From positions 62,001 to 126,000 of the forward strand of contig PLOR01000118.1 of NCBI GenBank assembly GCA_003142185.1: a stretch of DNA of 64,000 nucleotides, given 5' to 3'. This stretch comes from Bryobacterales bacterium (GTDB lineage: Bacteria; Acidobacteriota; Terriglobia; Bryobacterales; Bryobacteraceae). Each line of letters opens with the position of its first letter. Positions within the stretch are counted from its first letter, which is position 1. Positions 55,789 through 59,812 of the stretch are shown here, piece after piece. The translations under genes were made by a program, and so were the position numbers. The notes under the pieces were generated by a model. That model saw only the letters and a list, made by a program, of their open reading frames with translations, was not told the DNA's origin and did no database searches.

Positions 55789-57299
55789 AATCGGGAACGT
55801 GGAAGGGCGCGCTGGCCGCCATCGCGCTCGCGGCGCTGGCCAGCGCCGTTGCCATCGCATTCTTCTATTCACATGGCTGGCTGCTTTACTATGGCGATGC
55901 CGAATCGCACCTGAACATCGCTCGCCGGATATTGGATTCCCAAACGCCCGGCTACGACCAACTGGGCACGCCGTGGCTGCCGGTGCCGCATGTTTTGATG
56001 CTGCCCTTCGTGACGCATGACGCCCTGTGGCGCAACGGTCTGGCCGGCGCGATTCCATCGGGCATTTGCTTCGTAATGGCGGGCGTGTTTCTGTTCCTGG
56101 CGGCGCGGCGTGTGTTTGGCGGAGATGCGCCGGCCTTCGCTGCCGCGGCGGCGTTCGCGTTGAATCCGAACGTGCTCTACCTCGGGTCGATTCCCATGTC
56201 GGAGCCGGCCTTCTGGGCCGCCTGGATGGCGCTGCTCTACGCGACCGTCCGCTATCGCGATACCAGTGGCTGGGGCGCCGTGGTGGGCGCGGGCGTGGCG
56301 GCGTCGATGGCCGCACTCAGCCGGTATGAAGGATGGTTTTTGATTCCGTTCGTCGCCATCTATTTCGCGCGGCGCAAATTCAGCGCGGGCGTGGTCTTCG
56401 GCGTCCTCGCCAGTCTCGGCCCGCTGTACTGGTTGGGGCACAACTGGTGGCTGCAAGGCGACGCGCTCTACTTCTTGCGCGGCCCGGGTTCGGCTTTCGC
56501 CACACAGGGGGATGCGCCCTATCCCGGCAAGGGCGATTGGTGGGCTGCGCTCTTCTATTTCCGGCAGGCGGCGGAGCTTGGCGCCGGACCCGTGCTGGCG
56601 CTGGCCGGGTTGGCGGGCGTGGTGGCTGCGCTGGCCAGACGCGTCTTCTGGCCGTTGCTGCTCCTCGCGCTGCCCAGCGTGTTTTACGTCTGGAGCATGC
56701 ACAGTTCGCGCACGCCCATCTTCATTCCCACGCTGTGGCCGCATTCTTATTACAACTCGCGTTACGGCTTGGTCGCCATGCCGATGCTGGCATTTGCCGT
56801 GGCCGCGCTGGTGGCCGTAGCTCCGCGCGGCCTGCGCGCCTGGTGCGCGGCTGCGTTGGCGCTGGCGTGTGCCGCGCCGTGGCTGCTCCAGCCACAGCCG
56901 AAGAACTGGGTGACCTGGCAGGAGTCGCTGGTCAACTCCGAGGCGCGGCGCGGTTGGACGCACCAGGCCGCCGAATTCATGGCCTCGCATTACGTCCACG
57001 GATCGGGTATTATCACAACGTCCGGGGATATTACTGGAATTTATCGCGAGGCCGGAATACCGCTGCGCGAAACCCTCACCGGCGATAATGGCCTGCCCTG
57101 GCTGGCCGCGGTGAAACGCCCCGACTTGTTCTTGTGGCAGGAGTGGGCCGTGGCGATGGCCGGAGACGACGTCGAAAACTCGATTCAGACCGCCTCGCGT
57201 TATGGCATCCGCTACCGGCTGGAAAAAACCGTTCTTGTGAAGGGTGCGCCGGCCATCGAAATCTATCGGCGCACGGGAGGCAATCATGGTACCTCATGA
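55785..57299 (+). CDS. Membrane glycosyltransferase, GT39/ArnT-like
   Basis: About 504 residues with about eleven hydrophobic helices. The first loop after helix 1 carries [19 protein letters not shown], with acidic residues that match the DxD/DE motif of lipid-linked sugar transferases of the ArnT/PMT fold. A second loop has YNSRYG. No ATG lies near; a CTG at 55785 gives a 4-bp overlap with the kinase stop and begins just before helix 1, while TTG 55692 is also in frame. Likely transfers a sugar from a polyprenyl carrier to an outside acceptor. Confidence 0.8.
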
Positions 57300-57621
57300 A
57301 AGAGTAACGACGGCTTTTGAATTGCCGGGCTTCCGCATCAAGCGGAACCTCGGCGTGGTGCGCGGAATCATCGTCCGCTCGCGCTCCATCTTCGGCACCA
57401 TCGGCGCGGGCCTGCAAACCATCGTCGGCGGCAACATCTCGATATTCAGCAATCTCTGCGAGCAGACCCGCAACCAGGCTTTCGACCTGATGCTGGAGCA
57501 CGCCGGCCAGTTGGGCGCCAACGCCGTGATCGGCGCTCGCTACGATGCCACCGAGGTGATGCAGGGCGTCACCGAAGTGCTGGCGTACGGCACCGCGGTT
57601 GAGGTCGAGCCGCTGCCGTAA
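57286..57621 (+). CDS. YbjQ/UPF0145 family protein
   Basis: 111 residues from ATG 57286 with a gggagg ribosome binding site. Family features: [40 protein letters not shown], and [15 protein letters not shown]. Function unknown; homopentameric heavy-metal-binding-like fold. Overlaps the preceding gene by 14 bp. Confidence 0.93.
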
Positions 57622-57673: not shown

Positions 57674-58471
57674 ATGACCATACCCTTCACCAAGGCGCAC
57701 GGCGCGCAGAACGATTTCCTGCTTACCTGGCGGCGCGATGCGCCCGGCGGCGGCTTTCCGGCCATCGCGCGCGCCATCTGCGACCGGCACACTGGCATCG
57801 GTGCCGATGGCTGGATGCTGATCGATCCGCCGCAGGACGCGCAGGCGGACGGCGGGATCGAGCTGTATAACTCCGATGGCAGCGCTCCCGAGATTTCCGG
57901 CAACGGCACGCGGTGCGCCGCCGCTTTCCTGATTCATCACGGCCACGCCACCGACTTGGTCCGCATTCGAACCGGCGCGGGTGTCAAGACGCTCCGGTTA
58001 TTGGAGCGCGCGGGCCCGGAATTCATGTTCGAAATGGATATGGGCCGCCCGGCGATCCTGGCCGAACGCTTCGCCCTGCCGCTTGCGGGCGGTCTGCGGG
58101 ACGTTACCCTGATTGACGCCGGCAATCCGCAATGCGCCGTCCCGGTGGGCGATTTCGATTTCGATTGGCGCGCCATGGGAGCCGAGATCGAGCGCCATCC
58201 GCACTTCCCCAACCGCACCAATGTCTCGTTCGTCAAACCGGTGGATGCGCATTCGATCGACGTTCGCTTCTGGGAGCGCGGCGCGGGCGAGACGATGAGC
58301 TCGGGAACCGGGTCGACTGGCGCCGCGGTGGCCGCTGTCGAGCGCGGCATGGCGCAATCGCCGTTGCGCGTCCTTACCCCGGCGGGGCCGCTCGACATCC
58401 GCATCGAAGAAAGCGTCTTCCTGCGCGGCCCGGCGGTGCTGGTGGCGGAGGGTTTCTTCTTTGCCGTGTGA
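57674..58471 (+). CDS. DapF-like protein lacking both catalytic cysteines
   Basis: 265 residues with the diaminopimelate epimerase fold: KAHGAQNDF, RHTGIGADG, NSDGSAPEISGNGTRC, GNPQCAV and ERGAGETMSSGTGSTG. The positions of the two catalytic Cys (73 and 217 in the Haemophilus enzyme) are occupied by Ser75 and Ser210. Other active-site residues (Asn, Glu and Arg of RTNVSF and ERGAGE) remain. It may be a lineage-specific enzyme with altered chemistry, or a family-wide variant in Acidobacteria. Start ATG 57674; 52 bp after ybjQ. Confidence 0.8.
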   Translation: MTIPFTKAHGAQNDFLLTWRRDAPGGGFPAIARAICDRHTGIGADGWMLIDPPQDAQADGGIELYNSDGSAPEISGNGTRCAAAFLIHHGHATDLVRIRTGAGVKTLRLLERAGPEFMFEMDMGRPAILAERFALPLAGGLRDVTLIDAGNPQCAVPVGDFDFDWRAMGAEIERHPHFPNRTNVSFVKPVDAHSIDVRFWERGAGETMSSGTGSTGAAVAAVERGMAQSPLRVLTPAGPLDIRIEESVFLRGPAVLVAEGFFFAV

Positions 58472-58486
58472 GAGAATAGCGGTTGG

Positions 58487-59812
58487 ATGCCCGAAACTCT
58501 GCTAGCCGATCACCCAACTGCTCAAATCCTGCAGCATAAGATTTTGGAGAAGCGCGCCCGCGTGGGAATCGTGGGACTCGGATACGTCGGATTGCCGCTG
58601 GCGGTGGAGTTCGCCAAGGCCGGCTTTTCCGTAACCGGAATCGACATCAGCCAGGAGAAAACCAAAAAGGTCAACGCCGGCGATTCCTACGTGGGCGATA
58701 TCCCCAGCGCCACGCTCAAGCCGCTGGTCGAAACCGGCAAGCTGCGCGCCACCACCGATTTCTCCGCCGTGCTCGAGCTCGACACCATCAACATTTGCGT
58801 TCCGACGCCGCTCAGGAAAACCAAGGACCCGGACATGAGCTTCATCGTGAGCTCGTGCCAGGAAATTGCCCGCCACTTTCATGCGGGCCAATTGGTGATT
58901 CTCGAATCCACAACTTATCCCGGCACGACGGACGAGGTCGTGTTGCCCATCCTGTCGAAGTCCGGCCTCGAAGTGGGCCGCGATTTTTTCCTCTGCTTTT
59001 CGCCCGAGCGCGTCGATCCCGGCAACCTGAAATTCCAAACCGTCAATATTCCCAAAGTGGTGGGAGGCTGCACTCCTGCCTGCACCGAAATGGGCCGCCT
59101 GTTATATGCGCAGGCCCTGGAACAGGTAGTGCCGGTGAGTTCCACGCAGGTGGCCGAGATGGTCAAGCTGCTCGAGAACACTTTCCGCATGATCAACATC
59201 GGCCTAGCGAATGAAATCGCGCTGATGTGCGACCGCATGGGCATCAACGTGTGGGAAGTGATCGATGCCGCGGCCACCAAGCCTTTCGGCTTCATGCCGT
59301 TCTATCCCGGTCCCGGCCTGGGCGGCCACTGCATCCCCATCGACCCGTTCTATCTTTCCTGGAAGACCAAACAGGCCGGCATTGAGGCGCGCTTCATCGA
59401 GCTGGCCGGATACATCAACGGCCAGATGCCGCATTTCGCGGCCGACAAAGTGCAGAATGCGCTGAACGATGCAGGCAAGCCGGTCAAGGGATCGCGCATC
59501 CACGTAATGGGCGTGGCCTACAAGCGTAACATCGACGACATGCGCGAATCGCCCGCGCTCGACGTGATCCTGCTGCTGGATCGCCGCGGCGCGATCGTCA
59601 GCTACAGCGACCCGTACGTTCCCAAACTGCGCCTGGATGGCTTGCAGCTCGATGCTCAACCCGAATCCGCCGCCGCCGACGCCGATTGCGTGGTCATTAT
59701 CACCGACCACACTGGTTTCGATTACCGGGCACTGGTCGAGCGCGCGCCGCTGATCGTGGACACGCGCAACGCACTCAAAGGGTTCACCTCGCCGAAAATT
59801 GTGCGGCTATAG
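58487..59812 (+). CDS. Nucleotide sugar dehydrogenase (UDP-GlcNAc or UDP-Glc 6-dehydrogenase type)
   Basis: 441 residues. NAD-binding VGIVGLGYVGLPLAVEFAKAG at about 26-46, the STTYPGTTDE segment, FSPERVDPGN, and the catalytic Cys282 in GLGGHCIPIDP. Oxidises a UDP-sugar to the uronic acid; the layout (WbpA-like) favours UDP-GlcNAc. It provides building blocks for surface polysaccharide and fits with the membrane glycosyltransferase upstream. 15 bp after the DapF-like gene. Confidence 0.95.
   Translation: MPETLLADHPTAQILQHKILEKRARVGIVGLGYVGLPLAVEFAKAGFSVTGIDISQEKTKKVNAGDSYVGDIPSATLKPLVETGKLRATTDFSAVLELDTINICVPTPLRKTKDPDMSFIVSSCQEIARHFHAGQLVILESTTYPGTTDEVVLPILSKSGLEVGRDFFLCFSPERVDPGNLKFQTVNIPKVVGGCTPACTEMGRLLYAQALEQVVPVSSTQVAEMVKLLENTFRMINIGLANEIALMCDRMGINVWEVIDAAATKPFGFMPFYPGPGLGGHCIPIDPFYLSWKTKQAGIEARFIELAGYINGQMPHFAADKVQNALNDAGKPVKGSRIHVMGVAYKRNIDDMRESPALDVILLLDRRGAIVSYSDPYVPKLRLDGLQLDAQPESAAADADCVVIITDHTGFDYRALVERAPLIVDTRNALKGFTSPKIVRL

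Follow-up and report, generated by a model that had tools for sequence, protein, structure and literature searches.

Here we describe a homologue of diaminopimelate (DAP) epimerase, DapF, encoded in a 64,000-nucleotide window of a Bryobacterales genome, in which serine occupies both positions of the catalytic cysteine pair and which, judging from its sequence and predicted structure, is probably a working, thiol-free DAP epimerase. DapF provides a unit from which both the cell wall and lysine are built; it is the textbook example of a thiolate base that removes a proton of pKa about 29, as well as a Cys-directed antibacterial target. The serine pair is found in most of the sampled Acidobacteriota, a phylum of abundant soil bacteria, and we favor the reading that the Ser/Ser form would be the physiological LL- to meso-DAP epimerase both here and in most of the Acidobacteriota examined. 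The broader proposition, that a cofactor-free, thiol-free, two-base Ser/Ser epimerase arose at least three times in one phylum and supplies most of its members with meso-DAP, seems to us evenly balanced. Either the serines can perform DAP epimerisation, or the Ser/Ser Acidobacteriota use another enzyme.

The preliminary description of this gene read both catalytic cysteines as serine, and translation, the two codons (Table 1) and alignment to solved DapFs all bear this out: the translated coding sequence contains NSDGSAPEISGNGTRC and ERGAGETMSSGTGS, in which Ser75 and Ser210 align on the cysteines of the MCGNG and ACGTG motifs. By descent and fold the protein is a member of the DapF family. 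It scores 139.1 bits against PF01678 (cut-off 34.7) and 199.9 bits against the DapF equivalog model TIGR00652 (cut-off 114.65), although the latter score is not discriminating and is no proof of function, since Cys/Ser paralogues whose binding residues are changed clear the same cut-off; its 17 matches among solved structures are DapFs and O-ureidoserine racemase. Nevertheless, the Cys pair that characterizes DapF is absent, and NSDGSAPEISGNGTR has Ser where Cys is required by the PROSITE DapF signature, N-x-(DN)-(GS)-(SENGFT)-x(4)-C-(GI)-N-(GA)-x-R in the form quoted in PMC8225329; we therefore do not file the protein as a classic DapF. It likewise falls outside the proline racemase superfamily (PF05544, 13.7 bits against a cut-off of 27) and outside the Chlamydia-type bifunctional DapF/glutamate racemases (NF038284, 65.8 bits against a cut-off of 350), which are DapF homologues that keep Cys72/Cys207 and differ in an altered binding pocket. 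Current models thus label these proteins "diaminopimelate epimerase" despite the loss of both catalytic residues, and the annotation should be read with caution.

Table 1. Features of the DapF homologue and its neighbors (positions counted from the first nucleotide of the window).
Feature	Position	Strand	Remarks
DapF homologue coding sequence, Ser at both catalytic positions, 265 aa	57674..58471	+	ATG start, TGA stop; PF01678, TIGR00652
Ser75 codon TCC	57896..57898	+	aligns with first catalytic Cys (Cys73 Haemophilus, Cys75 Anabaena)
Ser210 codon TCG	58301..58303	+	aligns with second catalytic Cys (Cys217 Haemophilus, Cys224 Anabaena)
Gln153 codon CAA	58130..58132	+	replaces His of GNPH (here GNPQC)
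Phe199 codon	58268..58270	+	two residues before substrate-binding Glu201; candidate compensating residue
Ser214 codon	58313..58315	+	first turn of the helix after Ser210
Upstream neighbor, YbjQ family (PF01906)	57244..57621	+	context only; not a lysine gene
Downstream neighbor, nucleotide-sugar dehydrogenase	58487..59812	+	context only; not a lysine gene

The remainder of the active-site frame had been described as intact, which holds for the DAP-binding residues that were compared and fails at Gln153. Asn13, Gly43, Asn66, Gly76, Asn77, Asn151, Asn183, Glu201, Arg202, Gly203 and Thr207 are invariant in 82 of 82 representatives of the main Ser/Ser clade, and the DAP-binding set, in Haemophilus numbering Asn11, Asn64, Asn75, Asn157, Asn190, Glu208 and Arg209, is likewise present in all 82. 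Position 153 is Gln in 43 of these Ser/Ser representatives, His in 36 and Asn in three; as many Ser/Ser relatives retain His, this change is separate from the serine pair. In an AlphaFold2 model (pLDDT 96.5, pTM 0.92), Ser75 and Ser210 directly precede helices 76-88 and 211-223. Among solved structures this model comes closest to ligand-bound Anabaena DapF, 9mro (Z 36.9, rmsd 1.6 Å, 41% identity); the ligand-bound DapFs 3ejx and 5m47 are also among the best matches, and the top VIA-align rows are mostly DapF (Z 29-37). Compared with DapF (TIGR00652, PF01678; 9mro, 3ejx, 5m47, 1gqz), the window protein thus shares fold, length, closed-cleft architecture and the compared DAP-binding residues, and differs in both Cys-to-Ser changes, in the His-to-Gln change of GNPH, in Met8 of the KMHG motif (here Ala) and at position 199 (Phe for Val). 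PhzF, an isomerase that has a DapF-like fold without the Cys pair and uses Glu as its acid/base, is more distant (Z about 26, ~15% identity) and lacks the DAP-binding set.

Further positions vary together with Ser210. Of 95 rows with Ser210, 91 have F, I, L, M or W at residue 199, which lies on the same strand as Glu201, as against none of 54 Cys rows; the main clade, family f28 and both Cys/Ser lineages show this bulky residue, with the Val of family f9 as the exception. Position 214 tends to Ser in the Ser210 rows, all 12 of the comparators drawn from other phyla having Ala there; none of the Ser210 rows retains Met8. Because the rows are not independent and include only two starred independent pairs, we treat the link between 199 and 210 as a pattern and claim no significance for it. 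It is possible that a bulkier residue 199 pushes the shorter Ser side chain toward the substrate. In the mechanism that we propose, DAP would be held by Asn13, Asn66, Gly76-Asn77, Asn151, Asn183, Glu201-Arg202 and Gly211-Thr212 in a cleft that closes and shuts out water. Ser75 and Ser210, at the N-termini of two helices and on opposite faces of the alpha-carbon, would then serve as the acid/base pair, one of them (as an alkoxide or a strongly hydrogen-bonded hydroxyl) taking the alpha proton and the other donating one, while the bulkier second-shell packing at position 199 and Ser214 may place and polarise Ser210.

Cys/Ser DapF-like paralogues that pass TIGR00652 also occur on plasmids of Burkholderia/Sphingomonas (L324, L329, L331). 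These lack the equivalents of Asn13 and Asn77 (Asn11 and Asn75 in Haemophilus), which might be how a change of substrate or chemistry looks in this family, and they are probably a different enzyme annotated dapF.

The serine pair is not peculiar to this genome. In the genome of origin (Bryobacterales, 5.79 Mb, completeness 100%), the window gene is the sole DAP_epimerase match, and a search for a second, Cys-type DapF found none. Close relatives, as identified by a named-record scan, are Bryobacterales/Solibacter MAGs of the class Terriglobia, and essentially every readable DapF of 60 relatives has Ser at both sites, the exception being an extra Cys/Cys copy in one MAG (G026). A phylum-wide draw of 149 genomes, pooled with the relatives, yielded a readable full-length DapF from 193 Acidobacteriota genomes, most of which, on alignment of the two positions, have the Ser pair: 133 genomes have only Ser/Ser, 55 only Cys/Cys, three only Cys/Ser and two both types. 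Grouped by family code, 35 of the 63 families are exclusively Ser/Ser and 21 exclusively Cys/Cys. That the Ser and Cys types so rarely share a genome suggests functional replacement. Our search of the open-access literature found no work on the DapF of Acidobacteriota or on natural Ser-bearing DapFs.

Two cases of coexistence deserve description. The Bryobacterales MAG G026 carries its Ser/Ser DapF (L003/L280, G026:C50) and its Cys/Cys DapF (L033/L281, G026:C35) on different contigs; the Cys/Cys gene is directly followed by a strong DapL, and this extra copy may reflect contamination or transfer (GC 0.66 versus 0.68). In family f28 genomes (L179, L204, L206; L270, L271), an independent Ser/Ser DapF is accompanied by a highly divergent Cys-type DapF (FCSNG) whose score stays under the family cut-off.

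The phylogeny points to repeated origin. In a careful tree of 68 rows, from which positions 8, 75, 199, 210 and 214 were excluded, the main Ser/Ser group forms one clade (support 99/93) that joins ordinary GNPH-type DapFs of other phyla; a larger quick tree concurs on this clade. The Ser/Ser proteins of f28 fall apart from it, among proteobacterial Cys DapFs (99/92), and the Ser/Ser proteins of f9, along with the Cys/Ser proteins L184/L225 and L255, are nested in a second, GVPH type of Acidobacteriota DapF. About three changes at position 75 and about five at position 210 are needed on this tree. On this phylogenetic reading, besides the main clade there are at least two more Ser/Ser origins and two Cys/Ser lineages that arose separately, and the existence of natural Cys/Ser proteins indicates that the second Cys can be lost first.

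Sequencing error, contamination or a decaying gene might also be invoked for so unusual a pair, as some of the genomes are MAGs and the extra Cys copy of G026 is itself of uncertain origin. This reading is refuted by the recurrence of the same pair in 133 genomes and by the constraint on the gene, and we give it practically no weight. The dN/dS of the window gene against four relatives is 0.165-0.176, and both serines are invariant in 82 of 82 main-clade representatives, with Cys at position 75 in 56 of 56 Cys-type comparators. Across 184 rows, the Ser codons at the two sites are TCN in 96% and 95%, with AGY in scattered rows (the background AGY share for Ser in these genes is 33%), such that Ser has been held even where the codon family switched.

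The gene content of the genome of origin is consistent with a need for the product. DapB is present, LysA scores 496 bits, and MurE scores 539 bits against the 2,6-DAP ligase model (cut-off 373) and carries the DNPR motif, which was also found in the MurE loci of ten relatives examined. No DAP dehydrogenase scored over the cut-off in this genome or in the 61 relatives searched, and a bypass through that enzyme was rejected on these grounds. With DapB, LysA, a DAP-type MurE and no DAP dehydrogenase, this looks like a meso-DAP-requiring cell in which the window protein is the sole recognised epimerase. The MurI of the same genome (TIGR00067; L334:349-1191, G000:C63) retains both Cys, so that a general avoidance of thiol racemases does not apply; with PF01177 this MurI reaches only 32.6 bits, and the Pfam model can give false MurI absences in this group. 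The neighborhood of the window gene, which lies outside any lysine operon, is conserved in Bryobacterales, with the nucleotide-sugar dehydrogenase downstream, yet is uninformative on function.

Elsewhere in the phylum the pathway is less regular. DapB went undetected (TIGR00036 or PF05173) in about 40-47% of DapF-bearing genomes with either DapF type, possibly because it has been replaced or is very divergent; a loss of the DAP pathway tied to the Ser/Ser form was rejected, as DapB was undetected in 30 of 73 Ser/Ser and 21 of 45 Cys/Cys genomes (Fisher p 0.57). DapL was also set aside as context, since TIGR03540 exceeded its cut-off in G026 only and the aminotransferases found in most of the remaining genomes, at ~415 bits, give an ambiguous signal. 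Two genomes of the same class, G058 (100% complete) and G060 (98%), have LysA and MurE with neither DapF nor DAP dehydrogenase over the cut-off, and thus another route to meso-DAP may exist in the class; together with the many genomes in which DapB was undetected, they indicate that the pathway of this phylum is incompletely understood. G058 also encodes a proline-racemase-like protein (L298, G058:C305) whose first catalytic position is Ser (MSGTNT) and whose second is Cys (SPCGTG). Two further genomes, possibly Chloracidobacterium (G145, G169; 3.7 Mb, 2 contigs), have a Ser/Ser DapF and LysA over the cut-off and no detectable DapB; cultured Chloracidobacterium require lysine (PMC4376005, PMC12816986).

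A working Ser/Ser epimerase must be weighed against the chemistry of its relatives. With a pKa of ~16, a hydroxyl suits the base role far less well than a thiol, and E. coli dapF mutants are reported to be viable, which also counts against this reading. The accepted DapF mechanism relies on a thiolate of pKa about 8.5 (PMC12039745). PddB (a 2,4-diaminobutyrate racemase) and HisR (a histidine racemase) share with the window protein the DapF fold and, as we propose for it, cofactor-independent 1,1-proton transfer, but retain the Cys pair, and in both a single Cys-to-Ser change almost abolishes activity: such mutants of PddB keep <0.1% (PMC8225329), the same paper cites an equal loss for M. tuberculosis DapF, and C67S and C209S greatly reduce the activity of HisR (PMC11602996). 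Precedent on one face comes from the 4-hydroxyproline 2-epimerase B9JQV3, a natural epimerase of the same fold that works with Ser93/Cys236 (PMC4113996), although Ser is one of its two bases only and both its family (PF05544) and its substrate are different. Among the structures found, all DapFs have Cys, with Ser only as an engineered single mutant, and hence a proven epimerase with the Ser-Ser pair was not among them. The near-dead mutants, the retention of LysA and MurE without DapF in G058 and G060, the position of the gene in no lysine operon and a family-model score that does not prove function all weigh against a working Ser/Ser epimerase. The first two would instead suit a DAP-binding protein that is not an epimerase (a regulator, scaffold or pseudoenzyme, for instance a partner of another protein), with meso-DAP coming from another epimerase, and E. 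coli DapF in complex with RppH (6d13) demonstrates that a binding role exists in the family. We consider this main rival unlikely, if still worth serious attention: the per-genome mutual exclusion with the Cys type speaks for replacement in function, pure binding needs no Ser at exactly both catalytic positions, reached independently several times, and neither a spare DapF (in the genome of origin) nor a DAP dehydrogenase (in the 61 relatives) was found that could take over.

The preliminary description left two readings side by side, a different reaction on an amino-acid substrate and a lineage-specific DapF, of which we favor the second, as the DAP-binding residues are invariant and the gene set is that of a meso-DAP-requiring cell. 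A different reaction, on DAP or on another amino acid (another racemisation, or an elimination or dehydration), has analogies: among proline racemase superfamily proteins, alterations to the pair accompany altered chemistry, one of them with Ser/Thr being a dehydratase (PMC4113996), and several DapF-like proteins, such as HisR, PddB and O-ureidoserine racemase, act on other substrates. With all compared DAP-contacting residues invariant, no consistent gene neighborhood that would indicate another pathway, and a gene that is universal and single-copy in the manner of housekeeping genes, we find such a reaction quite improbable. A DapF-like function, by comparison, is favored by the way in which the protein, single-copy and under strong constraint, takes the place of the Cys enzyme throughout the phylum, the two types being mutually exclusive.

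Should the Ser/Ser form prove inactive, most Acidobacteriota must make meso-DAP by a route still to be discovered. Should this natural form instead work as an epimerase, the usual explanation for the Cys pair does not tell the whole story, and alpha-proton transfer on an unactivated amino acid could proceed without that pair. Thiol-directed inhibitors would then be predicted to spare an entire phylum. In C. glutamicum DapF, oxidation inactivates the Cys pair through a reversible disulfide (PMC5296763), and the Ser/Ser form might resist this oxidative inactivation.
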